Shown piece after piece: positions 1,593 to 64,000 of a stretch of 64,000 nucleotides of DNA. The stretch comes from an uncultured Pedobacter sp. (GTDB lineage Bacteria > Bacteroidota > Bacteroidia > Sphingobacteriales > Sphingobacteriaceae): positions 272,742-336,741 of the forward strand of contig NZ_CAMLIG010000002.1 of assembly GCF_946480185.1 (NCBI RefSeq). The letters run 5' to 3'. The notes below the pieces were generated by a model. The model was given only the letters and a program-made list of their open reading frames with translations. It made no database searches and was not told where the DNA came from. The translations under genes were made by a program, and so were the position numbers. Within the stretch, counting starts at the first letter, position 1. Every line of letters begins with the position of its first letter.

Positions 1593-2996
1593 CTATTGGG
1601 TGCCATCGATGGTAACCGCTACTTTACCGGAAGCTACAACCATTGCAACAATGGCATTTGGAGTTAAAATCACTTTATTTGGGGTAATTCCAGTTAGTTT
1701 TCCGTTTATCTTTACGCCTTTAATAGGTTGGTAATTGTTTAAATAACTTGACATTGTTTTTTCGCCATCTGCCAATTGGCTTGCGATAGAAAACCGACAA
1801 GCATCACTCATTTTTTTAAGAATTAAACCGTGGGCTAACCAATTTCCTACTTTCAGTAGTTTATTTTTAGAGTCTAACACAAAATCAACTTGATTTAAAT
1901 AAATCTCTTTAGTTGTTGCATTATAAGCAGGTATTCCGGTAAGGTAAAAATCGCCGTTTACAGAACCGCTCAAATTTAAATCCACAATCATTCTTCCATC
2001 TTTACCCCACAAACTCACCTTATTTACAGTAACAGAGCGAGTTCCAGATTCAAATTTCTGACCTGCGAAATTTTTCGTCACCACGTCAGAAGCATAGCTA
2101 TAAGGCGCAAAGGCCGCTACGTTTGCGGTAAACTGATCGGGCATTTTATCTACAGATTTTAATGCAATGGCATTTCTATCAAAAACCATCGAAGGCTTAC
2201 GTCCAATTGCAGTTTCTAAATAAGTTTTTAAACCCATGTTAACAGTTATTTTTTGATTTGCTACAGTTGCTTTAGTAGCATAAATTTCAACAGGCTGCAT
2301 AGTAAACCAAGTTTCATACTCATCGTTTACCTTTGTTGGCTGGCTAAAACTTTCTAAAGCATCCAGCACATAAGGTTTAATATCTAAAGATTGCGCAATG
2401 GCATCATCAACCAGTTTAGCTAATGTTGGTTTAAAAACAGCTATGGCCGGATTTATTAAATAAGTAATTGGAATGGCTTTTCCTGCCACTGTTACTGTTG
2501 GCGACTCTTTCCACTGAACATTTTGAATGTTTGTTGCTGTAGTAATTTTCCAATCTTTTAGGCCAATTGCGCTACTGAGCCTAATTGTACCATTTAAATT
2601 AAAGTCTTTAACGTCTGTTAAATCTATACCGAAAGATTGAACTCCATATTTTACCTTGCCTATAATTTTCAAAGGTAAATCCATTAAAATTTTGCCATTT
2701 TGCTCGCTAATAACAATATTAGCAGACTTATAAACCTTCATCATCAAGTTGTCGCCATCAAGAGAATTGTCATCATAAATTAATCCGTTGAGGAATTTGT
2801 TGGCTTGTGTCTGCAAATCTTTAACAGAAACCTCTACAGGCATATTTATAAAAGAAAGTTGTTTTTCGTAAACCACCTCGGTAGAAGAATAGTCTGGTAA
2901 GGGTTTTAACGCTTGCACTTTTTTTGAGGTACTGCAAGACGAGAGGTATAGCCCAAAAACAACCAATGTTAGTTGAGAAAATTTATTGAAATTCAT
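1593..2996 (-). CDS. DUF4403 family lipoprotein
   Basis: 467-aa predicted lipoprotein. Residues 1-21 form a signal peptide ending in a lipobox (LSSC, Cys 21), so it should be anchored in an envelope membrane. The mature part is a mostly beta-strand protein resembling the Bacteroidetes DUF4403 family, whose fold is thought to be of the lipid-binding TULIP/BPI type; the biological role is unknown. It stands alone, with a terminator just downstream. The family call is by recall of sequence style and length, not by a search. Confidence 0.75.
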   Translation of the reverse strand: MNFNKFSQLTLVVFGLYLSSCSTSKKVQALKPLPDYSSTEVVYEKQLSFINMPVEVSVKDLQTQANKFLNGLIYDDNSLDGDNLMMKVYKSANIVISEQNGKILMDLPLKIIGKVKYGVQSFGIDLTDVKDFNLNGTIRLSSAIGLKDWKITTATNIQNVQWKESPTVTVAGKAIPITYLINPAIAVFKPTLAKLVDDAIAQSLDIKPYVLDALESFSQPTKVNDEYETWFTMQPVEIYATKATVANQKITVNMGLKTYLETAIGRKPSMVFDRNAIALKSVDKMPDQFTANVAAFAPYSYASDVVTKNFAGQKFESGTRSVTVNKVSLWGKDGRMIVDLNLSGSVNGDFYLTGIPAYNATTKEIYLNQVDFVLDSKNKLLKVGNWLAHGLILKKMSDACRFSIASQLADGEKTMSSYLNNYQPIKGVKINGKLTGITPNKVILTPNAIVAMVVASGKVAVTIDGTQ

Positions 2997-3077
2997 GTTT
3001 TAAAAAATATTTTAATCCACAAATATATCAGCTAATTATCTATTTTTTTTTCGGAAGAATTTTATTTGTTGAATTCA

Positions 3078-3227
3078 CTATACAGGTTCTGATAAAAACT
3101 TAATGATGAATGAGAATATTGCCAATATTAATAGAATATGCACCATTATTCCGGCTGCAAAAACAAATACACCTAGCACCCAACCTATTAAAAAAAGAAG
3201 TATCAAAATATTTAATATCAGTCTCAT
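3078..3227 (-). CDS. lmo0937-type small membrane protein
   Basis: 49-codon gene read directly from the sequence: it starts MRLILNILIL, has a hydrophobic segment at about residues 3-25 and a second at about 28-43, and ends FLSEPV. Two short membrane helices with a Gly-Trp-Val-Leu-Gly turn match the widespread lmo0937/DUF5670 family of about 50 aa, whose function is unknown. It sits alone between an oxygenase gene and a lipoprotein gene, all on the minus strand. The family call comes from length and hydropathy pattern. Confidence 0.7.
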   Translation of the reverse strand: MRLILNILILLFLIGWVLGVFVFAAGIMVHILLILAIFSFIIKFLSEPV

Positions 3228-27471: not shown

Positions 27472-27567
27472 TTAGGGCGTTCGAGCGGGCTTTACGTTGC
27501 AATCTTTTTTGCTACTCTTCCACTTCGATCAGAATAGCAAAAAAGGATTTACACTGCAATCCCTAAC
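27472..27567. repeat. dispersed imperfect palindrome
   Basis: Outer arms TTAGGG (27472) and CCCTAA (27561) enclose matching inner arms around TTTTTTGCTA and TAGCAAAAAA. The unit resembles a family of REP-like intergenic palindromes I associate with Sphingobacteriaceae genomes. The rest of the 27381-27578 gap holds no gene. Confidence 0.65.
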
Positions 27568-27590
27568 GCAAATTTTATATGATAACGCAG

Positions 27591-43325: not shown

Positions 43326-43398
43326 GGTGCCTTAGCTCAGTCGGTAGAGCAAAGGACTGAAAATCCTTGTGTCGCTGGTTCGATCCCAGCAGGCACCA
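43326..43398 (+). tRNA. tRNA-Phe (anticodon GAA)
   Basis: 73-nt cloverleaf: a fully paired acceptor (GGTGCCT with AGGCACC), D arm GCTC/GAGC, anticodon loop CTGAAAA (GAA), T arm GCTGG/CCAGC with TTCGATC, discriminator A; CCA not encoded. It marks the junction between conserved chromosome and the island, so its 3' end is the likely integration target. Confidence 0.97.
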
Positions 43399-43403
43399 CA
43401 CCC

Positions 43404-50748: not shown

Positions 50749-52383
50749 ATGACTACGGAAGAAATACAGAATATCTTTGCTTCGGACGTTAAAGGTAATC
50801 CAATCTATATTGATGACGCTATTAGTGGTAGAAAAGGATATTTTTGTCTAGGTTGTGATAGAGAAATGCAGGCTGTGAAATCTATAATACGTGGAAGGAA
50901 ATCCTATTTCAGACACGATGTAGAAGCGAATAAGACAAAAGGAAAATGTACATATTCTGATGAAACATATCGTCATAAGCTCGCAAAAGAAGCATTGCAA
51001 ATATCAAAACGCATTAAAGTTCCTGCTATACTAAAATTTCATCCAACTAATCAAGGCGACGCTTTACTAATTAAACCATCACATTATATAGAGGCACATT
51101 CTGTTTCGATCGAGCTCGCTTTTTACGAAACTGATAATGGGGAGGTGAAATGGGGGAAGGATATTGGAGAGGGGAAAAATCTTCTAATCAGACCAGATGT
51201 TACCTTCTTTGACAAGAAGGGTCAACCTATATTACTTATCGAAATTGTAGCTACCCATAAACTCACAGAAGATAAAATCATACTTATGCGGAGACTCGGT
51301 ATTAACACAGTGTCAGTAACTATACCAAAAGATTCTCCAGAAGCTATAACTCAAACGTTCGAAGAAACAAGTAGAACCAAATGGATTTATAATTATGAAC
51401 AAGAGACAACCCAATATATATTGCTTTCCGACTCAGATGCAGAAGCAGTACCATTTATTGATGAGCAACAAAGAAGAGATTTTAAAATCACACTCAAATG
51501 CAGACAGGCGGAAATTGGAGATCTTATTCGCAGAATTGGAAGATGCTTGGCATCGGAACAATACCGAACAATTGACGAATCAAATAGACGAGAGTTACAA
51601 AGAGTTAAGGGAAATACAGACGAATTCCTCAGAGATATTGATAGAAAAGCAGAAAGCAATACAGGAACATTATCAACAGCAGAGGAACTTGAGATTAAAG
51701 ATTATAGAGAATCAAGAAGAGGAAATCAAGAAATCATCTCAGAAATTGGAGTTAATCAATACGAAGCTGAAAACAGATATAGGGAACTGGAAGAAAGATA
51801 TTTTAGAAAAAGAGAAGAACTTAGCAGAGAGCAGAAACAGGTTGACGGAGATTACACAAAACATGTCCAATCTAGAGGAAGAGAGGAAAGAGTCTTTAAT
51901 GATACTAGGTCACAACTTGAAAAAGAAACAATCAGAGTTGAAGACGCTATCCGAAAAGCAGAAAGAACTATTAGCGATACAACAGAAATTAGCTCGGATG
52001 GAGGCAGAAATCAAGAAGAGAGAGCTTCGAGAAGTACAGCTCTTAAAGAGAGAGAATATAGCCGAGGAAACGCAATTAAAGAACAGATTGAAAGACATAT
52101 CGCAAGAGAATTGGAAAATCGAGCTAAGTCATATAAAAGAATTGAAGATATGGGAAGCGAACTTAAAAAACAATATGAAGATTTTTGTACATCAACAATT
52201 GAAGCCATTGAGAGAGCAGATTATAACGGAATTCCCATACTTACCCAAGGACATGAAACAATGTTATCTACAAGGGGACTACTTTACGATTATTCAGAAA
52301 AACAACGCATTGAAAAGAGATATCGGTCAATTAGAGAGTTTCTTATCTCGGGCTCATTTAAAATATGGATGCCGAAGTCTTAA
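50749..52383 (+). CDS. CoiA/nuclease-like protein with coiled coil
   Basis: 544 aa. Residues 30-75 have a CoiA-like Cys/His pattern (CLGCDREM, RHD, C, H). Residues 130-200 look like a PD-(D/E)xK-type nuclease core (LIRPDVTFF, PILLIEIVATHKLTEDK). From about 215 on there is a long charged coiled coil, then a C-terminal module (NGIPILTQGHETML, RGLLYDYSEKQRIEKRY, SGSFKIW) that resembles conserved ends in Bacteroidetes relatives as I recall them. From 51395 a second frame is also open for 344 codons. The full-length first frame is preferred because its third codon positions stay AT-rich. Confidence 0.65.
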   Translation: MTTEEIQNIFASDVKGNPIYIDDAISGRKGYFCLGCDREMQAVKSIIRGRKSYFRHDVEANKTKGKCTYSDETYRHKLAKEALQISKRIKVPAILKFHPTNQGDALLIKPSHYIEAHSVSIELAFYETDNGEVKWGKDIGEGKNLLIRPDVTFFDKKGQPILLIEIVATHKLTEDKIILMRRLGINTVSVTIPKDSPEAITQTFEETSRTKWIYNYEQETTQYILLSDSDAEAVPFIDEQQRRDFKITLKCRQAEIGDLIRRIGRCLASEQYRTIDESNRRELQRVKGNTDEFLRDIDRKAESNTGTLSTAEELEIKDYRESRRGNQEIISEIGVNQYEAENRYRELEERYFRKREELSREQKQVDGDYTKHVQSRGREERVFNDTRSQLEKETIRVEDAIRKAERTISDTTEISSDGGRNQEERASRSTALKEREYSRGNAIKEQIERHIARELENRAKSYKRIEDMGSELKKQYEDFCTSTIEAIERADYNGIPILTQGHETMLSTRGLLYDYSEKQRIEKRYRSIREFLISGSFKIWMPKS

Positions 52384-52429
52384 AGAACTTTATAACGCAT
52401 ATATTAAATATGAAGATTCATTAAAATAG

Positions 52430-53173
52430 TACTAACTATAAGTGAGTTGCAATCCTGATTCTTACCTCTCCCGCATTGGTGCTTACAGGGGGAAAGGTAA
52501 GAAACAGTCTTTTGTACAGTGGTTGGGTACAATGTTCCACCTCATTCTTTAAAAGGTTACTGCTTTTAGTTTCTGGTCCGGTGTTCCATAGGTTGAGCCT
52601 GTGCGTACCCGATTAGGTAATAAGGCATTCGCAAAAGCTCCGAACGCAGATAGAACGCCAAATTGGTTGCGTTGATAAGTCTTGCAGACACATCAACTAC
52701 ACTTACTCACTTGGGTTCGCAATTTGTCATTCTATATGCTTAGTTCTACGGTTTGCTCATATATGCTCCCTTTATATTTATTGAACATTCTCTAGCGCTA
52801 ATGATCAATAAATCTAAACGCATATCTAGTTCAGCGAGCCTGCGCTTTCGAGAAAGCTTCGGATTCTGTCAGAGTTATTGTGTGGTCTCTCCCACTTCCC
52901 TTTTAACAATAACATCCGCCATAATCCTTGTGTTAAAACATATCTTGGTGCCCGTTTGCAAACTCCTGCACCAAGAACTTTCTCTCCACTCGCATGTCGA
53001 CTCGCAAGGTCTGTGCTGTTAATAAAAGGTAGTGCATTTTAAATAAAAGAAATTTGCATAAGGATATATATAAATTATTTATCTTAGAAAATAATATGGA
53101 ATCTTTGAACCTCCCTTAAGCTAATTAAATGCAGATGTGTTGTGGGGGTTATTGCACATATATATTAAGTTAG
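52430..53173. other. noncoding island region with inverted repeats
   Basis: No supported gene; the 89-codon frame at 52753 has no protein character. Features: TTCTTACC/GGTAAGAA arms around 52459-52503, CTTGGTGC/GCACCAAG (52944-52951 with 52968-52975), ATTCTTTAAAAGGTTAC at 52544, and a direct repeat (52977-53107) whose partner is at 55549-55680. Confidence 0.5.
52977..53107. repeat. 130-bp direct repeat, copy 1
   Basis: Shares CTCCACTCrCATGyCGACTC and GCAAGGTCTGTGCT with 55549-55680, then diverges but keeps AATAAATTT-like and TTATCTTAGAA blocks. The two copies bracket the first three genes of the defence region. Confidence 0.75.
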
Positions 53174-53560
53174 ATGCTATCTTACCAGACCGAATATATG
53201 AACAAAGATTCAAATCAACGAAATTGGAAATTAAGAGGAGCAGTATTCTTGACAATTGCTACAGTGACTTTTTTATGGAATTCAAAATTTACTAAAATAG
53301 GCATAAACCTTTATCAGAGTATTTTAGTCAGTTTGCTCCTCACGTGGTTGTTAGTGTATATAAAAGCGTTATTCACAGCTCGAATTAGGAAGGCAAAGGG
53401 ATGCATAAACAGAGGAAATAATATTTGGGAACACGACTACGTATTCAAAAGTTCCACCCTTGGCTATCACGACAATAAGGAGATAAATCATAGGGTAAGT
53501 TACGAATGCAAAAATTGTCGAAAGGTCTACGTTGAAAATGAAGTTAAATATTTACGTTAA
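53174..53560 (+). CDS. hypothetical membrane protein with Zn-ribbon end
   Basis: 128 aa, not recognised. Two membrane helices (about 22-38 and 47-67) are followed by a cytoplasmic tail with CINRG near 78 and CKNC near 112, which may bind zinc. The start may be Met 1 (53174) or Met 9 (53198, MNKDSNQRNW). Position just before the cassette-like units suggests accessory or defence cargo, by location only. Confidence 0.55.
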   Translation: MLSYQTEYMNKDSNQRNWKLRGAVFLTIATVTFLWNSKFTKIGINLYQSILVSLLLTWLLVYIKALFTARIRKAKGCINRGNNIWEHDYVFKSSTLGYHDNKEINHRVSYECKNCRKVYVENEVKYLR

Positions 53561-53720
53561 TGACCTGTCTTAAAATTGCAGTTTGTAATTCTCATTCAGA
53601 ATCACGAGCTATGCCTATCCAAATCCATGAGACTTTTATACACATAAATCGCTTTTATCATCTGAATTAAATCATTGAGTTGTTTATACCTAACTAAATA
53701 ATACGACTCTAAAAAATACA

Positions 53721-53855
53721 GTTACTAACCGCAAATTTGTATTATAATGGCTGAACTGCTTTACTTTATATCATCGCAATTAACTAACTTTATATGGGCA
53801 GACAAGTTTGTGCTTTCTAAGCCATTACAACACAAATTCGCCAACCGTTATGTGT
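53721..53855 (+). repeat. attC-like palindromic site 1
   Basis: 53731-53752 pairs with 53820-53841 in 19 of 22 positions, around a 67-bp spacer. The left flank is TACTAACC and the right flank CCGTTATGTG, resembling the RYYYAAC/GTTRRRY simple sites of integron attC. The next gene starts at the ATG inside GTTATGTG. Left half recurs at 54667, 58377 and 59174. Confidence 0.6.
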
Positions 53856-54662
53856 CATTATAGAAACATTGTGGAAAACAAGAAAATAAAAATAGACACT
53901 TTTAATCCATACGAAAACAGGTTCCCAAACAGAAAACTAGTTACAAGAGAAACTTTGCTTTTGGTTAAATATTTAAGGACTGAGGGTTATGAAGTAGTTA
54001 TTGAACCTGACAATGGGCTTCCTGTTGAGTATCTCTATCGAAAGGGAATTAGAGAATTTTTTGCTGACCCTGTTAATATAATGCTTATCAATATTCCAAT
54101 ATCAATATTGGTAAATATTATTTCAAACCAACTTCAAAAATTATTTGACAAAAAAGAAACCTTAAATAAGCAGAATGTAAATATTAAAATTGACAACTCT
54201 ACAAACGTTTACAATTACTTAGGAGAGCCACAAGAGAAGAACATCGACAAGATTATCGATAAAAAGCGAAAGGAATTAAAAGAAGGGTTTAATAAATGCT
54301 TTGAAATAAAATCGCCTTACGAAAATTTACCGATACCAGTATTCTTAGAACACAAGCCCAAAATTGTTGGTTGGTGTTGGCTTTGGAGTGATGATGAAGG
54401 TTTGAAGTCTAAAATGATAATAACCGACAAAGTTGTTAAAAGAAGAATTACACAAAACCGTTTAAATGGCTTAAGTGTGACGGGAATAGCAACAAAGACA
54501 AAATGCTCAATTTGCAAATCTGAATTTGTCAATTGTAAACATATACCAGGAAAAAAATATAAGGGGGAGAAATGTTTTAACACAATTATGGAAACCGAAT
54601 ATGTAGAAACCAGTATTGTTAAAGAGCCCATTAATTCCCAATGTTTAATTAGTTATAAATAA
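53850..54662 (+). CDS. cassette-borne protein of unknown function with Cys motif
   Basis: 270 aa from ATG 53850, which lies within the right end of the attC-like site; the frame is open 42 bp upstream but that part is repeat sequence. A hydrophobic segment at about 82-102 could be a membrane helix. The C-terminal half has CSICKSEFVNCKH near 223-235, a possible zinc site. No family recognised. The stop codon is 4 bp before the next repeat (CACATAAC at 54667). Confidence 0.6.
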   Translation: MCHYRNIVENKKIKIDTFNPYENRFPNRKLVTRETLLLVKYLRTEGYEVVIEPDNGLPVEYLYRKGIREFFADPVNIMLINIPISILVNIISNQLQKLFDKKETLNKQNVNIKIDNSTNVYNYLGEPQEKNIDKIIDKKRKELKEGFNKCFEIKSPYENLPIPVFLEHKPKIVGWCWLWSDDEGLKSKMIITDKVVKRRITQNRLNGLSVTGIATKTKCSICKSEFVNCKHIPGKKYKGEKCFNTIMETEYVETSIVKEPINSQCLISYK

Positions 54663-54666
54663 CGAA

Positions 54667-54786
54667 CACATAACAGCAAATTTCACAAAGATGGCTCACG
54701 CAGTTTACGTTAATTCGTCAGTTATTTAGTTACTTTAGTGCTGGATGACAATGGTTCTGCAAATAGTTTCTTATCCCAACGTGTTG
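54667..54786 (+). repeat. attC-like site 2
   Basis: CACATAACAGCAAATTT and a shared block GGCTCACGCAGTTTACGTTA align with site 1 and site 4; CACATAAC is the inverse of GTTATGTG at site 1. The right half (to CCAACGTGTTGAT) is degenerate. Confidence 0.5.
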
Positions 54787-54823
54787 ATAGAAGCGATCAT
54801 ATTCAGAGATAGAAAGCAAATAC

Positions 54824-55513
54824 ATGGAAATTGTTTTAATCATACTTTTCTTTGTTGGTTCAATTATAATCTTCATTAAGGTTCGAGATAAGAAGTTATT
54901 AGAAACTGTTACAAAATCAGATAGAGGGACTAGAACTGAGAGAAAGCTAGTATTAAAGCTTTTAAAATTTGGAACTCCGGCAGTTACTATCTTCCATGAT
55001 TTATACGTGAAAAAGCGTGACGGTAATTACACTCAAATTGACTTAGTCGTTGCAACCAAAGTCGGAATAATTGTATTTGAAGTCAAAGATTACAAGGGTT
55101 GGATTTTTGGAACTGGCTACAAACCGCAGTGGACTCAAGTACTAAGTTATGGTAAAATAAAACATCGATTTTACAATCCAATATTACAGAACAATAAACA
55201 CATCGAAGATTTAAGGAAACAGCTTAAACAGTTTGAAAATATTCCATTTTATTCAATCGTAGTATTCTATGGAGACAGCGAGTTAAAGGATATAACTTTC
55301 GTCCCAGAAGGAACATTTATTGTAAAACCTAATAGAATTTCGAAAGTCCTGAAGATGATTTTGAAGAACAACGAACCAGCCCATTACACCAACAAAAGGG
55401 AAGTGGTTAATATGTTGAAAGACGCTGTCAAGAACGGAGAAAATAGTGAGGTTCAAAGTCAGCATATTGAAAACGTCAATGATATGTTGGGTAGAGATAG
55501 GGTATTTGATTGA
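54824..55513 (+). CDS. NERD domain nuclease-like protein
   Basis: 229 aa. One N-terminal membrane helix (2-18), then a NERD (nuclease-related) domain: GTRTERKLVLKLL near 35-47, TQIDLVVATKVGIIVFEVKDYKG near 72-95 with the Asp...Glu-x-Lys nuclease core, and a C-terminal helical end. NERD proteins are often found in plasmids and defence regions, anchored at the membrane. It is the single gene between two repeats, so probably one mobile cassette. Confidence 0.82.
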   Translation: MEIVLIILFFVGSIIIFIKVRDKKLLETVTKSDRGTRTERKLVLKLLKFGTPAVTIFHDLYVKKRDGNYTQIDLVVATKVGIIVFEVKDYKGWIFGTGYKPQWTQVLSYGKIKHRFYNPILQNNKHIEDLRKQLKQFENIPFYSIVVFYGDSELKDITFVPEGTFIVKPNRISKVLKMILKNNEPAHYTNKREVVNMLKDAVKNGENSEVQSQHIENVNDMLGRDRVFD

Positions 55514-55777
55514 GAAAAATCATCTGTTCTGCAAATCAATTTTAACATGAACTTTTTCTCCACTCACATGCCGACTCGCAAGGTCTGTGCTATTTACAAC
55601 GGCAGTGATATTTTAAGAAAATAAATTTCGTTAATGGTTAACAAAGATTATCTTAGAACAATAAACCAACTTAATATGTACACATTAGAGATGTTATCGG
55701 TTTATGAAACACGTATATACGTTAGCAGTAAACATAAGACAGATTTTCCTAGAAACTAAATAAAACGAATTTTAACA
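55514..55777. other. intergenic region between cassettes
   Basis: No gene. Contains the second copy of the direct repeat (55549-55680) and an AT-rich leader for the ATPase gene. No attC-like block is recognisable here, unlike at the other boundaries. Confidence 0.5.
55549..55680. repeat. 130-bp direct repeat, copy 2
   Basis: Partner of 52977-53107, best conserved over the first 40 bp (CTCCACTCACATGCCGACTC then GCAAGGTCTGTGCT). Confidence 0.75.
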
Positions 55778-58366
55778 ATGTCAATATATCTGGATATTTT
55801 AAATTGGTCGCAAGGCAGACAACTTTTTGTTCAAGATGCCTTACGAAGACTAATCACATCAACAGCACTTACGCAAACAGACATTAGCGACCTTGTTGAA
55901 TTAGTAAAAAAGGACTGTGGCGACACCTCTATATCTATAAGCGCAATTCCACTCGATAATACACACATTCCAGCAGTGACAATAACAAGTGGTAATTATC
56001 CCAAATTGATTAGCCTAAAAAATCCAGTAAATATTTGTGCCTTACACAATCAAGGGAATTTACAATTTTCCAATATAGGTTTGAGCGTTGTGTATGGTAA
56101 CAATGGCTCGGGGAAATCAAGTTATTCACGTATTTTAAGAAAACTTTGTTGGAGTAGAAATCCAGGCGTTGATTTAAAAAAAAATGTATTCAATCCATCG
56201 CCAAACCAACAACAAGTAGATTTTATTGTTGAAGATAACGGGTCAAATGTAGGTTTTACTTGGAATGAAAACAATCCTAGTAATCCTATTCTCAATTCGA
56301 TCTTTGTTTTTGATAATGACTGCGGAAATATTTACATCAACAATGAAAATCCAACTGAATATAAACCTGTTGGAATTGACGTTTTAGAAAAATTGATAAT
56401 AACTTTTTCGAGCATAAATCACGAACTTGGTTTATCAATAGCTTCATATAACACACAAAAGCCACTACTACCGCAAAATTTACTTCTAACATCATTAGCC
56501 CAATGGTATGGAAGAATAGAAAATTTACAACGCACCGATATTGATTTACAAATTCAGTTCTCTCAAATAGACTCGGAAAGAAAACAAGAGTTGATGAATT
56601 TAACAACAGCACAAAATCCACAACAAAATATTACAAACTTATCAAATCGACGAACTCGAATAAACAACTATATTCACCAATTTACACAAATTGAAAATTT
56701 TTTCAACGAACAAAACATAAACGAATTAATAGCAAACAGAAACACTTTTGAAAGTGTAAATTTAGCATATCAAATTGCAACATTAGAATTACAAAACGTA
56801 AGCACTTTAGAAGGGTTTGGCACAAATCCTTGGCGCACATTATGGGAATCCGCAAAGAATTATGCACATATTTCAAATCTTTCAGACGGTCAAAATTTCC
56901 CATCTTTAGTTTCATTGGAAAAATGCGTATTCTGTCAACAAGAGCTTAGCGAAGAAGCACAGCAAAGACTGACAACATTCAATCAATTCGTTTTAAATGA
57001 CGTTTCAACACACTTAGATTTAATTAATTCGACAATCCAATCAAAACTAAACACATATAATTCACTTTTTGTTCCGGAAATAGAAACTTTCATTGAATTA
57101 GAGCAATTAATATCTGATTTTAGAGATAATTACGATCAGTTTTCTAATGCTATCTTAACGTTAAAAAATTCTGTGATTACGTTTTTGCAAAATGGCGGAG
57201 AATTGAACATCAATTTACAAACGCTGTCAACAAGCATTGCTAATATAATACCACTTATTGACGCAGGGATAAGCCAGAACAAGCAACTTCTACAAGATAG
57301 AAACACATTAGTTTCTGAACTTAATGAACTTTATGCTAAAGAGTTTTTGTTCAACAATAAACCTACAATCCTTCAATATTTTGATGAACACAAATACAAA
57401 ACTTGGATAAACCTTTGTAAATCGCAACTTTCCACAACTGCAATCTCACGAAAAATTGGCGAGTTAATGGAAAACCAAGCTGTAAATTTGCAACATCAAG
57501 AATTTGTATCACACCTTAATTTCTTCAATCGGGATTTAGCAAGCAAAGTTCTGATTTCACGAACAAGAACAAGTCAAGGAAGCACATATCAAAGATGCGG
57601 TCTGAACGGAATTAGTGAGGCCATAAATTCTATTTTAAGTGAAGGCGAACAAAAAATAATTGCATTATCAAACTTTTTAGCTGAATCCACAATCGACAAC
57701 CGTCTTAACACATTAATTTTTGACGACCCCGTTACTTCTTTAGATATGGATTATAGAGAATTAATTGCAAATAAAATAGTTCAATTATCACAAAACAGAC
57801 AGATTATTGTCTTTACTCACGATTTATCATTCTTACGTTTGCTTATTGACACTCATAAATCAATTACTAGTAATGATTGTACAATCATTGGAATTGACAA
57901 ATACAACGAAATAAGCGGAATTGTAACGGACGAAATTCCTTACCTAGCTAAAAATGTCCAAGAAAGAATTAATTCTATAAGAAGAATTTTAGCCGAACAC
58001 GATGCGCTTAATTTGACAGATTCACATGGAAGAAATACAAAACTTGAATCTAGTAGGAAAAGATTTAGAATGTTATTAGAGCGAACTGTTGAAGAAATCT
58101 TATCAAACAAAACATATGAAAGATTTAGCAAAAATATAAATCTAAAAAAAGGAACTTTGTCAAGTTATATAGTAACTGAACGGTCAGACATCGATTTTCT
58201 ACTAAACTTATATGGTAAGTATTCAATAGCTTTACACGATGGAGGAGCATCTACCATTTCGCAACTACCTACTAAAACAGAAATTGAGCAACACATTAGA
58301 GACTATTCTGATTGGAAAAACAATTTTAAATCTAAATTAGATACTTTTAAAGCAACATATAATTAA
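55778..58366 (+). CDS. ABC/AAA_13-type ATPase with CxxC hook
   Basis: 862 aa. Walker A YGNNGSGKSS near 105-114, ABC signature LSEGEQKIIALSNF near 620, Walker B LIFDDPVTSLD near 646, switch His in FTHDLSFLR near 676. Between them is a long coiled coil broken by C-V-F-C at 383-386, like the zinc hook of Rad50/RloC. A helical tail of about 150 residues follows. The layout is that of AAA_13 proteins such as PrrC/RloC, anti-phage tRNA nucleases, but I do not see a certain nuclease motif in the tail. Flanking repeats mark it as cassette cargo. Confidence 0.8.
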   Translation: MSIYLDILNWSQGRQLFVQDALRRLITSTALTQTDISDLVELVKKDCGDTSISISAIPLDNTHIPAVTITSGNYPKLISLKNPVNICALHNQGNLQFSNIGLSVVYGNNGSGKSSYSRILRKLCWSRNPGVDLKKNVFNPSPNQQQVDFIVEDNGSNVGFTWNENNPSNPILNSIFVFDNDCGNIYINNENPTEYKPVGIDVLEKLIITFSSINHELGLSIASYNTQKPLLPQNLLLTSLAQWYGRIENLQRTDIDLQIQFSQIDSERKQELMNLTTAQNPQQNITNLSNRRTRINNYIHQFTQIENFFNEQNINELIANRNTFESVNLAYQIATLELQNVSTLEGFGTNPWRTLWESAKNYAHISNLSDGQNFPSLVSLEKCVFCQQELSEEAQQRLTTFNQFVLNDVSTHLDLINSTIQSKLNTYNSLFVPEIETFIELEQLISDFRDNYDQFSNAILTLKNSVITFLQNGGELNINLQTLSTSIANIIPLIDAGISQNKQLLQDRNTLVSELNELYAKEFLFNNKPTILQYFDEHKYKTWINLCKSQLSTTAISRKIGELMENQAVNLQHQEFVSHLNFFNRDLASKVLISRTRTSQGSTYQRCGLNGISEAINSILSEGEQKIIALSNFLAESTIDNRLNTLIFDDPVTSLDMDYRELIANKIVQLSQNRQIIVFTHDLSFLRLLIDTHKSITSNDCTIIGIDKYNEISGIVTDEIPYLAKNVQERINSIRRILAEHDALNLTDSHGRNTKLESSRKRFRMLLERTVEEILSNKTYERFSKNINLKKGTLSSYIVTERSDIDFLLNLYGKYSIALHDGGASTISQLPTKTEIEQHIRDYSDWKNNFKSKLDTFKATYN

Positions 58367-58376
58367 TAGAATGCCT

Positions 58377-58450
58377 ACCGCTAACAGCTTGTTCAAAAAT
58401 GGCTCATAGTGTTTCCGGTAATTCTTGCATTAATTATTTATTTTGATGTA
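58377..58450 (+). repeat. attC-like site 3
   Basis: ACCGCTAACAGCTTGTTC, AAAAATGGCTCATAG, and a TTAATTATTTA block align with the left half of sites 2 and 4. It starts 11 bp after the ATPase stop and ends 22 bp before the next ATG. Confidence 0.5.
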
Positions 58451-58472
58451 CTAAAGATGACTTGACTGAAAA

Positions 58473-59204
58473 ATGAGCTCAATAATTCACTTTACCGAAA
58501 AATACGACACTTTAAAAAGTATTTTAACAGAGCAGTCATTTAGATTAAAATACTGTAACGAAGTGTTTTACTTGGGAGACAAAGTAGCGTCAAAAGCAGT
58601 TCATCCAATGGTTTCTTTCTCAGAACAAATAGTTAAGAATATCGATAGAAAATATATTACATACGGTAAGTTTGGAATAGCAATGAATAGAAGTTGGGTT
58701 ACCGCTAAAAAGTTACACCCAGTGCTTTACTTAGACAAAAATTCAACGGTTGCAAATGCGCTGACACTGTTATTAAAAGCAAGACGCGATAAAACAGAAA
58801 CACAACTGACTTCCCTAGTCAAGGTTTCAATAATGACAATAAAATGTTTTACAAAAAATGCAGTTGGCTATAATAGCTACTTTGACATTAATGATTTTAA
58901 TTTTAAGACTGAGAAAGAATGGAGGTTTGTTCCTACAAAATCAGACATCAATAACAATTTAATTTCTCAGACAAAAAGCCTCTACGACAAACGACCGAAG
59001 TATTACAATGACAAGTTAAAAGCGTATCCGCTTACATTTAAAAGAAGCGAAATTGATTACATATTTGTAGAAACAAAAGTTCAGCAGGATGAAATCTCTA
59101 CGCTATTTAAAATAGATAAAAATAGAATATTATTAAGTAAGTGGTCAACGGAGTTAAGAAAAAGAAAGGCGATCACATCAGCAAATTTGTCCAAAAATGG
59201 CTGA
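58473..59204 (+). CDS. AbiGi-like abortive-infection protein
   Basis: 243 aa. The N-terminus IIHFTEKYDTLKSILTE, then RLKYCNEVFYLG, PMVSFSEQIV and YGKFGIAMNRSWVTAKKLHPVLYLD, matches the AbiGi family, known as the antitoxin part of AbiG-type phage resistance; single relatives also occur alone. A C-terminal EKEWRFVP motif is kept. No AbiGii partner is seen beside it. The last 8 codons and stop lie inside the next repeat, so the gene end is encoded by repeat DNA. Confidence 0.65.
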   Translation: MSSIIHFTEKYDTLKSILTEQSFRLKYCNEVFYLGDKVASKAVHPMVSFSEQIVKNIDRKYITYGKFGIAMNRSWVTAKKLHPVLYLDKNSTVANALTLLLKARRDKTETQLTSLVKVSIMTIKCFTKNAVGYNSYFDINDFNFKTEKEWRFVPTKSDINNNLISQTKSLYDKRPKYYNDKLKAYPLTFKRSEIDYIFVETKVQQDEISTLFKIDKNRILLSKWSTELRKRKAITSANLSKNG

Positions 59205-59255
59205 CGGTGGTTTACATTAAATTTACTCGTTAGTTACTTAGTTCAATGGTGTAAG
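59174..59255 (+). repeat. attC-like site 4
   Basis: The block at 59181-59202 matches site 1 left arm in 18 of 22 positions; GTTTACATTAAATTTACTCG and TTAGTTACTTAGTT match site 2. It overlaps the AbiGi-like coding end. Right arm not found. Confidence 0.55.
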
Positions 59256-59485
59256 ACACCTATAACTCTTGCTAATAAACATCAATTAATAATATTACCT
59301 TTTAAATAGATGAGACTAAGATAACCCACCCCCTTAAAGCTATTTTCGATACTCTCGAAACTAATACGAATGTCATAAGCTTACCTCCAAATCAAACCTC
59401 AATTTCAAATATTTATTTGTCAACAATTGCTCATAATTGCTAATATTTTTAGTAAAATTGTATCCGCATTTAATTAGGATATAAT
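59256..59485. other. regulatory region before the UmuD-like operon
   Basis: TAATATTACCTTTTAAATA at 59291-59309 is identical to 43611-43629. Upstream of the first ATG are direct AATTGCT repeats near 59427 and 59438 and TATCC/GGATA arms near 59461-59481, either of which could be an operator for damage control. Confidence 0.45.
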
Positions 59486-59866
59486 ATGGTATTGACGACA
59501 AATAGAGTTGAGTTTGGTGTAATCTCATCAAACTCTAAAATGGAGATTGTTCCAGAGGGGTTTACCAAAGCATTTCCCAATTCTCAGATACATTCCATAT
59601 TTGAAGTTTGGAACAACGATGCAGAACACTTTGGAATTAAGAGAGGGAGTATTGTTTGTGTAAATCAATCCATAAAGCCAAAAGGTGGAATGTTGCTTAT
59701 TGTTAAACAGAAGGAGAGGTGGATGATTAGACAGCTTCTCACATATGGTGATATCAGTTTAATATCAACTGGAAAAGAGAACGCTAAACCCATCCATATA
59801 AATGAAGTTGAGGTTTACGGTGTGATAACCTGGTGCTGTTCTGCTAAAATAGATTACTCTCTTTAA
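59486..59866 (+). CDS. S24/UmuD-like protein, apparently non-catalytic (first copy)
   Basis: 126 aa with the LexA/UmuD S24 fold but no N-terminal DNA-binding head (FEVWNNDAEHFGIKRGSIVCV, NQSIKPKGGMLLIVKQKERW, EVYGVITWCC). The catalytic Ser loop (GDSM in active proteins) is absent, and the Lys position reads MIRQL, so autocleavage is unlikely. First of three tightly packed genes (9-bp gap, then ATGA overlap) ending in umuC. It may be a fixed partner for the polymerase or an SOS-type regulator. Confidence 0.65.
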   Translation: MVLTTNRVEFGVISSNSKMEIVPEGFTKAFPNSQIHSIFEVWNNDAEHFGIKRGSIVCVNQSIKPKGGMLLIVKQKERWMIRQLLTYGDISLISTGKENAKPIHINEVEVYGVITWCCSAKIDYSL

Positions 59867-59875
59867 AGTTGGAAC

Positions 59876-60283
59876 ATGCTTAGGGAATTAGGTAACAGAA
59901 ACGAAACACTTGAACCATTAGAAGATGCTGGTAAGGTAAGTGGGTTCCAATCTCCTGCTGAGGATTATGCAAGCAGAAGGTTGGATATAGACCATAAACT
60001 AAAGCACGACCCTATCAATACATTTTACTTTGAATCAAAACAAGATCTCCCAGCATTCTATATTAGAGTGGGTGATATCTTAATTGTTGACCGTTCTAAA
60101 ACCCCCAGACATAACAACAAACTGGTGGTATGGCATGACCAAAAATGGAGTGTCTGCGAGTATCAGAACAGGAACAAACGTAAGTACCTCCGTAACTGTA
60201 TAGATGGTCAGGAGCTTGAAGTCAACCAAGAGGGAGTATCAGTTTTTGGTGTTATCACTGGACATTATTCTGAAGATATATGA
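59876..60283 (+). CDS. UmuD-like protein, apparently non-catalytic (second copy)
   Basis: 135 aa. The N-terminal GFQSPAEDYASRRLDID is the typical UmuD segment around the cleavage site (here Ser-Gly), and GDILIVDRSKTP is intact. However, the region before it reads FYFESKQDLPAFYIRVGD without a GDSM motif, and the expected Lys of the dyad is replaced (WSVCEYQ). The fold is kept but self-processing seems lost. Its stop overlaps the umuC start (ATGA), so the two are translated together. Confidence 0.75.
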   Translation: MLRELGNRNETLEPLEDAGKVSGFQSPAEDYASRRLDIDHKLKHDPINTFYFESKQDLPAFYIRVGDILIVDRSKTPRHNNKLVVWHDQKWSVCEYQNRNKRKYLRNCIDGQELEVNQEGVSVFGVITGHYSEDI

Positions 60284-61536
60284 GGATGATTGCCATGGTT
60301 GACTGCAATAACTTCTACGCATCATGCGAGAGGTTGTTTAATCCAAAGTATGTTGGTTGGCCAGTAATTGTACTGTCTAATAATGATGGCTGTGTTATAG
60401 CAAGAAGTCAGGAAGCTAAAGATTTAGGTGTTAAAATGGGTGCTCCTTATTTTATGATACTTGAATTGATAAAAGAGCATAAGATAGCTGTGTTCAGTAG
60501 TAACTATAGACTTTATGCTGATATGAGTGCAAGGGTAATGAACAATCTAGCTCGTTTTACTCCTGATGTTGAGGTTTATAGTATCGATGAATGCTTTCTC
60601 CAATTTGATTTTCATGAATCTGTTTCATTGCAGGAGCTAGCTTTAAAGATTAGGAGTCAGGTTACAAGAAACACTGGAATACCCATTAGTGTTGGTATTG
60701 CATCTTCCAAAACACTAGCTAAGATCGCTAATAAGATTGCCAAAAAAGACCCTTTGGGAGTGATGGTTTTAGATAGTGATGACAAGATAACTGAAAAGCT
60801 TGCATCATTTCCAATAGAAGATGTTTGGGGTATCGGTAGAGCAGGATATAACAAGTATTCTGCACAGGGACTTAAATATGCAGGTGAGATCAGAGACCAG
60901 CCTTTGGACTGGATTCAGAAGACATTTACGATACAGGGAGTTAGGATGTGGCATGAGCTTTACGGTAGAGCAGTCATTCCATTTGGTTACTTCCCTGAAA
61001 GAAAAAAAGGGATATGCAGTAGTAGAAGCTTTGGTAAATTAACTGATGACATTCTACAGATTAAAGAGGCTACTGTTTCATATACCACCCGGGTTGCAGA
61101 AAAGCTAAGGGCAGACAAAAGCTGTTGTTCTTTACTTAATATAAGGCTTATTACGAATAAATTCAGAAGTGATCTTAAACAGTATTATCCAAGTATCAGT
61201 GTGCCATTAGCCCAACCGATGAACAATACACCTGATCTGGTCAAGATTGCGACTAAAGCTGTTGATACTGTTTATAGACCTGGATATATGTTTTTAAAAG
61301 TAGAAGTTATCGCTACTGGACTGATACCGGAAAGTGAGGTTCAGCTAAACCTTTTCAACAACTGGTGTGGCAAGAAGAAAGACAAGGTGAGTGATGTTAT
61401 GGATGTTTTAAACTCACATTATGGTAAGGGCACAATTCGTATGGCAGGGGAATCATATGTGAAAAAATGGAGTATGCGGAGGGAGCACCTAAGCCCAAAC
61501 TATACAACCAATTGGAATGATATAATCAAGGTTTAG
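60280..61536 (+). CDS. umuC: Y-family DNA polymerase (UmuC)
   Basis: 418-aa translesion polymerase: VDCNNFYASCERLF near 6-19 (first metal Asp), YSIDECFLQF near 100 (catalytic Asp-Glu), helix-hairpin-helix VWGIGRAGYNKYSAQG near 186, and a UmuC-type C-terminal part (KEATVSYTTRVAEKLR, SHYGKGTIRMAGES). It replicates past lesions. Encoded after two UmuD-like proteins. The start may be 60280 or Met 4 (60289). Mobile elements often carry such umuDC copies. Confidence 0.92.
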   Translation: MRMIAMVDCNNFYASCERLFNPKYVGWPVIVLSNNDGCVIARSQEAKDLGVKMGAPYFMILELIKEHKIAVFSSNYRLYADMSARVMNNLARFTPDVEVYSIDECFLQFDFHESVSLQELALKIRSQVTRNTGIPISVGIASSKTLAKIANKIAKKDPLGVMVLDSDDKITEKLASFPIEDVWGIGRAGYNKYSAQGLKYAGEIRDQPLDWIQKTFTIQGVRMWHELYGRAVIPFGYFPERKKGICSSRSFGKLTDDILQIKEATVSYTTRVAEKLRADKSCCSLLNIRLITNKFRSDLKQYYPSISVPLAQPMNNTPDLVKIATKAVDTVYRPGYMFLKVEVIATGLIPESEVQLNLFNNWCGKKKDKVSDVMDVLNSHYGKGTIRMAGESYVKKWSMRREHLSPNYTTNWNDIIKV

Positions 61537-62656: not shown

Positions 62657-63121
62657 ATGGAACAAAATGTAAACAACTTACTTATGGTAAGTGAAATCGA
62701 ACTGGTTTATAAGCCTAAGATCAAGCCGTCAGAGCGATTAAAAATCACATCTTCTAAATCTGCCTATGAGATATTTCTCGATAGCTGGGATAAAGGTTCT
62801 ATCGAATTCTACGAACAGTTTAAGATTATGCTGTTGAACAAAGCTTGTAAAGTTTTAGGTGTAATCACCATTTCAAGAGGTGGAATTGACGGTACTGTTG
62901 TTGATTTAAAACTGGTATTTGGAATAGCGATTAAAGCAGGTGCATCAAATATAATTCTAGCTCATAATCATCCAAGCGGTAATTTGAAACCGAGTAATCC
63001 CGATATTAATTTAACAAAGAAACTGGTTACTGCTGGTAAGATATTAGAGGTTCGGATCGTTGAACATTTGATAATAACTAATGAAGGATATTACAGTTTT
63101 TCTGATGAAGGATTGATGTAA
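62657..63121 (+). CDS. RadC-like JAB domain protein
   Basis: 154 aa, JAB/MPN metalloprotease-like fold: metal site HNHPSGNLKPSNPD near 106-119 with distal Thr/Lys, upstream Glu near 55, and the IEHLIITNEGYYSF-type end (here VEHLIITNEGYYSFSDEGL). RadC-type proteins are widespread in genomic islands and ICEs; the old DNA repair role is disputed, and an anti-restriction or mobility-related role is suspected. The short form lacks the N-terminal helix-hairpin-helix region of full RadC. A terminator follows. Confidence 0.88.
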   Translation: MEQNVNNLLMVSEIELVYKPKIKPSERLKITSSKSAYEIFLDSWDKGSIEFYEQFKIMLLNKACKVLGVITISRGGIDGTVVDLKLVFGIAIKAGASNIILAHNHPSGNLKPSNPDINLTKKLVTAGKILEVRIVEHLIITNEGYYSFSDEGLM

Positions 63122-63127
63122 TTAATT

Positions 63128-63162
63128 AAGCTCTCAGAGATGAACCCTGAGAGCTTTTTTTT
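63128..63162 (+). terminator. rho-independent terminator of radC-like gene
   Basis: GCTCTCAG/CTGAGAGC (63130-63137 with 63147-63154) then eight T. It also faces the integrase end on the other strand. Confidence 0.85.
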
Positions 63163-63168
63163 ATATGC

Positions 63169-64000
63169 TTACAATTCAGGAAGAGCATCCATCAATTGGT
63201 CAGTATTAATCTCTCCAAGACCACGGAGATAATTTAGCGTAACAATCATATTAGAATGCTGTAATAATTGTTGCAATACATGAAGATCTTTAGTTTTACG
63301 GTATACATTTACCGCTGATGTATGCCTAAAGGAATAGATTGTATGACCTTTCTCTAAAAGTCCCAATTCAACCATTCGCTTTTTAGCTCTAGACCATTGG
63401 GTGTTTATATAACTTTCATTATAAGTGACTATATCTTGGCTTAAAAGATTAGTTTCAGGATCTAATATTTTCTCCAATCGCTTTTTTAAAACCTCTTGCG
63501 CAAAAACTGGAATAATAGACGTTCTTACCCTCCTACTTTTGTTTTCAGAGGCAGATAATATGATTTTAGTTACTTCATCATTAACATGCTTCTTTTTTAA
63601 AAGTCTAATCTCTTGATGTGGTCTCAAGAAACATCCATAAGTCAGAATACAGCAAAAATGTAAATTTGGGTACTCTTCTTCTAGAAACGTCAATACGTCG
63701 TTAAGTTGCTTCTTATCATAGACCTGATGGAGTTTGGCAACTCTCTTCATAGGTCTTGTGTCCTTAACAGGATTTTCTGTAAGTAACTTTTTACGTACCA
63801 ACTCGGAGAAGAACACATTCGTTGTCTTCCTTTTACTCATATAATAAGTTCCGGAGCTCTTATATTGATTGAGAAAACTTTCAATATCGATTTCGCTTAT
63901 TTTAGTTACGTCTGTGTTGATTAAATCGTTGCCAAGATAATCTAAGAGAGAATTACAGACCTGATTTAGATCTCTTTTATAGACGTTGCTAAGGTTAGAG
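63169..64000 (-). CDS. tyrosine recombinase/integrase (5' end outside the window)
   Basis: Partial: the frame stays open to the window edge, so the Met at 63840 is internal (upstream codons read SNLSNVYKRDLNQVCNSLLD and on). The visible part has the end of the SAM-like core-binding domain and the catalytic domain: Arg in YGCFLRPHQEIRLLK, then YSFRHTSA (Tyr in place of the first His), LLQHSNMIVTLNYLRG with the second His and the nucleophilic Tyr. It probably drives integration at tRNA-Phe. Its 3' end converges on the radC-like gene, and the element end should lie to the right. Confidence 0.9.
   Translation of the reverse strand, partial: SNLSNVYKRDLNQVCNSLLDYLGNDLINTDVTKISEIDIESFLNQYKSSGTYYMSKRKTTNVFFSELVRKKLLTENPVKDTRPMKRVAKLHQVYDKKQLNDVLTFLEEEYPNLHFCCILTYGCFLRPHQEIRLLKKKHVNDEVTKIILSASENKSRRVRTSIIPVFAQEVLKKRLEKILDPETNLLSQDIVTYNESYINTQWSRAKKRMVELGLLEKGHTIYSFRHTSAVNVYRKTKDLHVLQQLLQHSNMIVTLNYLRGLGEINTDQLMDALPEL

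Follow-up and report, generated by a model that had tools for sequence, protein, structure and literature searches.

Four copies of a repeated block stand between defence genes in the genome of an uncultured Pedobacter sp., and the question raised by this locus is whether they are the remains of an integron-like array of gene cassettes and, if so, what kind of integrase such an array belonged to. The locus lies within a stretch of 64,000 nucleotides (contig NZ_CAMLIG010000002.1, positions 272,742 to 336,741), called the window here. A preliminary description of the window had proposed an attC-type cassette array carrying defence genes inside a tRNA island. Briefly, the window very probably holds the decayed remains of a cassette array, without its integrase, from an integron-like system of the Bacteroidota whose integrase has no I2 insertion. 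By anatomy this system is integron-like; it falls outside the integrons if these are defined by an IntI with I2.

Cassette ends, exchange and cargo

The preliminary description had proposed looking for the same block beside unrelated genes in other genomes, and it was found so placed in Pedobacter. A collection scan for the core pattern of the block returned four matches, all from Pedobacter and each a full site of ~135 bp. The genes beside them, named from a reading of their open reading frames, were an FMN-reductase-like gene with a HigBA-like pair, an Xre-like antitoxin gene with sucD, a TPR-like gene and a TIR-like gene. A covariance model (R1) made from the first window site and these four copies (alignment A2) gave 6, 36, 2 and 65 whole-genome matches in the four Pedobacter genomes, and the genome with 65 matches included contigs of 9-10.5 kb with 11, 9 and 10 sites, on a single strand in each contig. 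Same-strand arrays with 9-11 sites per short contig, or 16 in one stretch, agree with the attC-type architecture that had been proposed. Because Pedobacter-group sites served to train the site models and the integrase served to find the extra loci, the counts describe these loci and not the frequency of sites elsewhere. A scan of viral contigs with a 17-base pattern gave a single match, which fell in a coding frame and was rejected as chance.

In a cassette system one circular cassette supplies both the R' end of a site and the R'' end of the next site, and these two have to be complementary; no such demand holds for the two ends of a single site. Here the 14-nt R' was complementary to the R'' of the same cassette and not to the other arm of its own site, which is the signature of gene cassettes. 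In a first set of 73 consecutive pairs a mean of 7.59 of the ten positions 5-14 agreed, compared to 3.45 +/- 0.17 when partners were shuffled (highest mean in 2000 shuffles 4.14) and 3.55 for own-site ends (n=82), and 55 of the 73 pairs scored at least 8 where 1.4 were expected. A later-fetched set of 131 pairs had a mean of 7.22/10 against 3.34 +/- 0.125 with shuffled partners and 3.75 for own-site ends (n=188), with 83 pairs at 8 or above and 1.5 expected. Sites entered these tests only when their GTT and AAC lay no more than 3-4 nt from where they were expected; the window sites were left out and sites cut by contig ends contributed no R''. Pairs at 8 or above were less frequent at long spacing (66/83 under 1 kb, 14/27 at 1-2 kb and 3/21 beyond 2 kb), as expected if sites are missed or lost in long gaps. 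The R' of attI agreed with the R'' of the first attC in the same manner, with 30 of 40 comparisons at 8 or above and a mean of 7.55 compared to 3.61 +/- 0.24. Position 11 was constant in its disagreement, with A in R' and C in R'' on the top strand in 58 of the 60 first-set pairs scoring at least 7 and in 82 of the 83 later pairs at 8 or above (137/138 merged). An integron R box usually has 7 nt, and the R arms seen here, which pair along 14 nt and carry the constant A-C of position 11, seem to depart in this from those of sedentary chromosomal integrons. Within the phylum, R-arm length was compared at 18 classical IntI and 18 new-type loci; the comparison comprised 18 and 11 pairs and used a GTTRRRY filter ill-suited to the new type.

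Whole cassettes were shared with exact ends. One cassette common to two genomes was 93.4% identical over 1-730 / 1-732, a second, likewise found in two genomes, was 88.6% identical over 1-753 / 1-754, and a third, present in two contigs of one genome, was 99.7% identical over 1-391. The neighbours of these three cassettes were related at 24-32% ungapped identity, which is chance, and the moving unit therefore ends at R' and R''. Dispersed hairpins resembling miniature inverted-repeat transposable elements, repetitive extragenic palindromes or terminators, lying between genes by accident, would account for the long imperfect palindromes and for the isolated site copies that exist outside arrays. 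Such an origin is extremely improbable given that own-site ends agree at background level while cassette ends match, and that arrays keep to one strand and lead away from the integrase with top-strand G-T/G-U pairs at 1% of stem cells. For the arrays themselves it is refuted by the R'/R'' pairing together with the whole shared cassettes.

The cargo was summarized from 150 cassettes that were selected for matching ends, being bounded by pairs scoring at least 7 and under 5 kb. Their median length was 728.5 bp, 28 contained more than one open reading frame, and the longest frame was on the + strand in 128 and on the - strand in 10, the remaining 12 having none of at least 60 aa. The 173 cassette proteins fell into 156 families, 148 of them with a single member. 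Scanning of 147 of 163 cassette proteins against families gave, among the matches listed, at least seven helix-turn-helix antitoxin-like proteins as well as GmrSD-, Eco47II-, AlwI-, PD-T7-4- and PDC-S02-like proteins. As judged from these sequences, array cargo outside the window is very diverse and includes some predicted defence and toxin-antitoxin genes.

The integrase beside the arrays

Searched with the model for integron integrases, the four Pedobacter genomes gave a tyrosine recombinase in three cases, 348 aa long where intact (the copy in L038/L110 is broken by stops and that in L036 is cut by a contig end). In L037 and L038 a single gene separates the integrase from the first site, and the attI-like R' complements the first R''. 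Locus L094 is a complete example, with the integrase at 2038-3081 of that locus, the attI R' at 3178 and 16 sites to 18658, all on the + strand. Integrase size was about 350 aa in the main clade and 274-541 aa over all loci. At 55 integrase loci, 95 of 99 sites were downstream on the integrase strand and four were upstream on the other strand, strand and not side being the fair measure because most stretches reach further downstream than upstream. Twenty further loci from a phylum sample included 18 with sites, and all 63 of these sites were on the integrase strand. Sedentary integrons differ in this respect, as the array integrase is mostly transcribed toward the array direction and is divergent from it, as in classical integrons, in only four loci of one subclade (L160, L162, L163, L165). 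The attI-like R' of these four lies at the 5' side of the integrase, with R'/R'' agreement at 10, 10, 7 and 5 of 11 positions.

Modules moved by the host XerC/XerD at pdif-like sites were considered, as part of the literature describes Acinetobacter resistance modules flanked by Xer sites (PMC7399989). Such an explanation is very unlikely here; no sites were found at 20 XerC/D loci, although this is weak evidence as Xer acts in trans. Hairpins of ~135 bp with a dedicated adjoining integrase are furthermore unlike dif, which has 28 bp.

Among 201 genomes of the family, the integrase was detected at E<=1e-40 in 63 and sites were detected in 67, the site search having used stricter filters and 16 candidates per genome. 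Sites were present in 23 of 25 genomes with an integrase at least 59% identical and in 44 of the 176 others (p 9e-11). Homologues at E<=1e-60 occurred in 99 of 395 Bacteroidota genomes, and arrays are known for the loci examined and not for all 99.

The integrase is not IntI. The Pedobacter protein scored 207 bits against the integron integrase family TIGR02249 (cut-off 265), matching positions 2-179 and 238-315 with 180-237 unmatched, while NF040815 was a slightly better match at 218 bits, just below its cut-off of 220. The span between two catalytic landmarks was 92 residues in clade A (21/24 measured) and 91-97 in the other clades (31/31 measured), compared to 133 in IntI (6/30 measured) and 96 in Xer (6/20 measured). 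In a tree of 105 proteins the IntI clade (100/99) and the Xer clade (100/99) were separate from a third group formed by the array integrases (98/93), and all 30 IntI proteins sampled lay apart from the latter; the deep branching order is unsure because long branches meet. The best sequence matches in the PDB were 4a8e (XerA-like, 9.9e-42) and 5hxy (XerA, 1.2e-36), followed by IntI4 (2a3v, 2.4e-36), which aligns either side of a gap such that its chain residues 184-242 have no counterpart in the array integrase. An AlphaFold model (pLDDT 78, pTM 0.49), taken as a basis for fold family only, also matched the XerA family best. The array integrase differs from these archaeal XerA and Xer-like recombinases in an extra N-terminal part of ~70 aa and in being tied to cassette arrays. 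The attribution to integrons in the preliminary description is supported for the architecture; the enzyme adjacent to the arrays of relatives is an I2-less Xer/XerA-like recombinase instead of the one expected of integrons proper.

A passage of the IntegronFinder 2.0 paper defines a CALIN as two or more attC sites without an integron integrase (PMC9024848). An ordinary CALIN, in which the array belongs to a classical integron whose IntI acts in trans or has since been lost, would explain the like architecture, and IntI was above its family cut-off in 105 of 395 Bacteroidota genomes, including 4 of 18 site-bearing genomes of the phylum sample (L262, L266, L267, L269). This explanation is unlikely and already disfavoured, as IntI at the thresholds used was absent from 36 of 40 site-bearing genomes (4/4, 18/18 from the family and 14/18 from the phylum sample). 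The family and phylum counts were merged without double counting, eight of 26 family-search genomes being already IntI-negative in the phylum sample and the four IntI-positive genomes being absent from these 26; the family search gave no match at all and has the phylum search as its positive control, and an IntI gene may be missed in the draft genomes of the phylum sample. Moreover, of the 99 genomes that encode the new integrase 26 also had IntI, where 27 were expected by chance (a count over two lists), and the site model found no sites at 30 IntI loci of ~3.6 kb each. The frequency of IntI, 105 of 395, exceeds what the consulted parts of the integron papers suggest for the phylum.

Folding of the sites and choice of strand

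Where the top strand has its A-C mismatch at position 11, the bottom strand has a G-T wobble, and the inner stem shows this polarity too at two places, with top A-C in 67/84 and 45/82 sites. The bottom strand therefore folds better and is the probable substrate. With DNA folding parameters, the bottom strand of the circular site was more stable in 131 of 138 cases (mean -27.5 versus -23.5 kcal/mol), and in 114 of 138 when the site was folded in its array form. The stem covaried across 92 sites, with changes on both sides in 15 of 21 pairs, a level reached in 0 of 500 shuffles and compared to 6 to 12 in slid controls; these counts are inflated by shared ancestry. Top A-C exceeded top G-T by 55 to 18 in modelled pairs and by 145 to 6 in R, where position 11 accounts for almost all of them. 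The scarcity of top G-T/G-U pairs mentioned above argues against an RNA role.

These features suggest the following mechanism. Intact members encode a tyrosine recombinase related to XerA/XerD and IntI, without I2, about 100 bp from an attI-like site, past which the sequences place an array, running away from the integrase, of cassettes with mostly one gene and one attC-like hairpin each. A cassette begins with G|TT plus 11 nt (R') and ends with the complement of this (R''). Cassettes would move as circles cut at G|TT, as the exact-ended shared cassettes and the R'/R'' identity indicate. The folded bottom strand is the probable substrate and the exchange is probably one-stranded, as in integrons, this being the least sure step and one for which the folding bias is indirect evidence.

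An alternative differs from this mechanism in the last step only. The integrase might exchange cassettes by a two-strand Xer-type reaction at duplex R' cores, the hairpin then being no more than an inverted binding site. The enzyme has no I2 helix, which a part of an eLife 2020 paper presents as the step to single-strand use and as missing from Xer proteins (PMC7790495). It also conserves R, K, H-x-x-R, H and Y. These are the residues of tyrosine recombinases at large. Opposed to a two-strand reaction are the neighbouring R' cores, which have little more than GTT(A/G) in common, an overlap that seems too short for two-strand exchange, as well as the excess of top A-C and the greater stability of the bottom strand. 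The two-strand reaction is accordingly a minority possibility, though a real one.

We lean somewhat toward a second kind of integron across the Bacteroidota, in which cassettes would be captured and shuffled via folded single-stranded attC by an integrase that never had I2 or has lost it, and in which strand choice by G-T wobbles would replace the extrahelical bases docked by I2. Such a system would be either convergent or a living relative of a pre-I2 ancestor. The relevant part of a 2022 Science Advances paper treats the additional domain as unique to IntI, necessary and its defining mark (PMC9668308). A survey of tyrosine recombinases, in the portion concerned, describes the insertion as 'not fully conserved' in an integron-like subgroup and yet essential for integron function (PMC8138268), and this subgroup may include such I2-less proteins.

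The window array and its place among integrons

All four sites first described in the window were recovered by model R1. Site 1 (53716-53861, + strand) is complete, with R'' at 53716-53729, arms at 53731-53752 and 53820-53841 and R' at 53847-53861. Its match (53723-53854) scored 124.5 bits (E 6.8e-28), partly by construction because site 1 is one of the five training rows, and 110.1 bits with model R2, which had no window rows in training. The bottom strand of site 1 is the better folder, the outcome of a check that had been suggested. Sites 2 to 4, as previously noted, have each been reduced to the left half by loss of the right arm. Site 2 (54660-54790, +) scored 48.0 bits (54668-54790, E 3.2e-9), and its R'' (54660-54674) pairs with the R' of site 1 through GTTATGTGT, a one-base bulge and further matches, confirming that the end of site 1 is the inverse of the start of site 2 and placing cassette B from 53847 to site 2. 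Site 3 (58372-58492, +; R'' 58372-58385) has the weakest R1 score at 24.5 bits (58379-58492, E 0.0018). Site 4 (59173-59316, +) scored 41.1 bits with R1 (E 1.5e-7) and 33.1 bits with R2, and the AAC of its R'' is damaged. The pattern ATGGCTNA..GTTTAC occurred twice in the window and not in 100 shuffles; a looser test with a 21-base pattern of the left block alone, allowing 3 mismatches, gave no more window matches than chance would.

The four sites were not the full set, as two attI-like sequences had been missed. Remnant 1 (53069-53182, +) consists of the 3' flank of the lost integrase gene and then GGGGGTTATTGCACATATATATTAAGTT, with R' at 53169-53182. Its anatomy matches the sequence directly 3' of the integrase stop in L037 and L094, its 53069 end being the counterpart of the stop codon place in L037. 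Its R' matches the R'' of site 1 at 9/14, to which the usual position-11 difference is added. Remnant 2 (55645-55734, +; TTATCTTAGA...GTATATACGTTAGCAGTAAACA) is weaker, and its R' (55721-55734) matches the R'' of site 3 at 12/14, allowing the usual A/G difference at position 11, so that a site between the NERD and ATPase genes has probably been lost. A 43-nt direct repeat (GAACTTTYTCTCCACTCRCATGYCGACTCGCAAGGTCTGTGCT) is located upstream of each remnant (52975-53017 and 55549-55591, both +), and its last 18 bases had no occurrence among 270 loci.

Cassette A extends from 53169 to site 1 and includes a 128-aa gene (53174-53560, +) with no Pfam or PADLOC matches. The cassette B gene (53850-54662, +) has 57 homologues aligned over 86-99% of its length, the named ones mostly from scattered Bacteroidota. 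Its start had been placed at the ATG within GTTATG and is probably a GTG near 53871 instead, because the homologues are mostly ~263 aa. There follow a NERD-domain gene (54824-55513, +; PF08378 in Pfam, with a weak PADLOC match to PglW, 5.5e-7), an 862-aa AAA_13/PDC-S06-like ATPase gene (55778-58366, +; PADLOC 7.2e-153, PF13166) and an AbiGi-like gene (58473-59204, +; PF10899, Pfam 1.5e-34, PADLOC AbiGi 1.5e-29), whose frame does end within site 4. The ATPase cassette reaches site 3, beginning at the R' of remnant 2, and the AbiGi-like gene leads on to site 4. The NERD, PDC-S06 and AbiGi matches bear out the defence cargo that had been proposed. By tblastn there was no integrase of the array type in the 64-kb window, in line with the earlier remark that none was visible, and the window with its four R1-scored sites fits the CALIN definition cited above. 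With the integrase gene gone, two attI-like sites left and three right arms lost, the array would probably be immobile, or frozen.

The window comes from a relative of Pedobacter segetis, at 90% for one 513-aa protein, whose best matches overall reach 95%. The tRNA island was supported in part. Synteny with P. segetis and P. psychrophilus breaks at the tRNA-Phe (43326-43399; ~18 kb compared), and no window island genes were found in the ~18 kb past the tRNA-Phe in these two relatives, while a repeat of the tRNA end was not found in the window. An Rfam scan of the window gave two tRNAs and a Flavo-1 RNA at 27479-27574 (-). At 50749-52429 two long frames, of 544 and 344 aa, overlap on the same strand. 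Directly after the array, 59486-61536 contains two S24-peptidase-like genes, the second below the Pfam cut-off, and a UmuC-like gene by reading of its open reading frame, and 62657-63840 contains a RadC-like gene (+) and a 223-aa tyrosine recombinase gene (-). This recombinase falls outside the array integrase family by score, its best match being 40 bits to XerC.

Several observations weigh against reading the window and its relatives as one integrase-driven cassette system. Pairs scoring under 7 numbered 13 of 73 in the first set and 38 of 131 in the later one, and in the window the attI-1/site-1 pair agrees at only 9/14 and attI remnant 2 is weak. The attI motif, found at 21/24 clade-A and 19/20 further loci, was present at only 11/31 clade-B/C loci and also at 2/20 Xer and 6/29 IntI loci. 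Integrase loci lacking sites amounted to 7/24 in clade A and 11/31 elsewhere; eight of these 18, but not the other ten, had under 300 nt of downstream DNA. The 44 of 176 family genomes that bear sites with no close integrase belong here, although some have a more distant one, as do the four site-bearing genomes with IntI. Finally, an integrase that lies next to the cassettes need not be the one that moves them, and we infer recombination from the sequences.

The likeness to sedentary chromosomal integrons and CALINs extends to attI by the integrase, one-strand arrays whose cassettes mostly hold one gene, hairpin sites, R' and R'' that are identical within a cassette and a diverse cargo of unknown genes, and the difference lies foremost in an integrase without the I2 insertion that forms a separate tree group. 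Of the features that define integrons, attI beside the integrase, imperfectly palindromic attC with circular-cassette R''/R' and short, mostly co-oriented cassettes with mostly one gene were found, and IntI with the I2 region was not. A review, in the section concerned, counts Bacteroidota among integron-bearing phyla (PMC8618304), and part of the IntegronFinder 2.0 paper reports that only In0 were known earlier in Bacteroidetes and gives one complete integron, in Salinibacter ruber (PMC9024848). No description of the present arrays was found in those portions of the open-access PMC literature that were consulted. Behind the arrays there seems to be a large pool of mobile genes that has gone unannotated, with defence and toxin-antitoxin genes among them. 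Having the other integron features tested beside an I2-less enzyme, they make the claim of an I2-helix innovation, as put forward in part of PMC7790495, directly testable.

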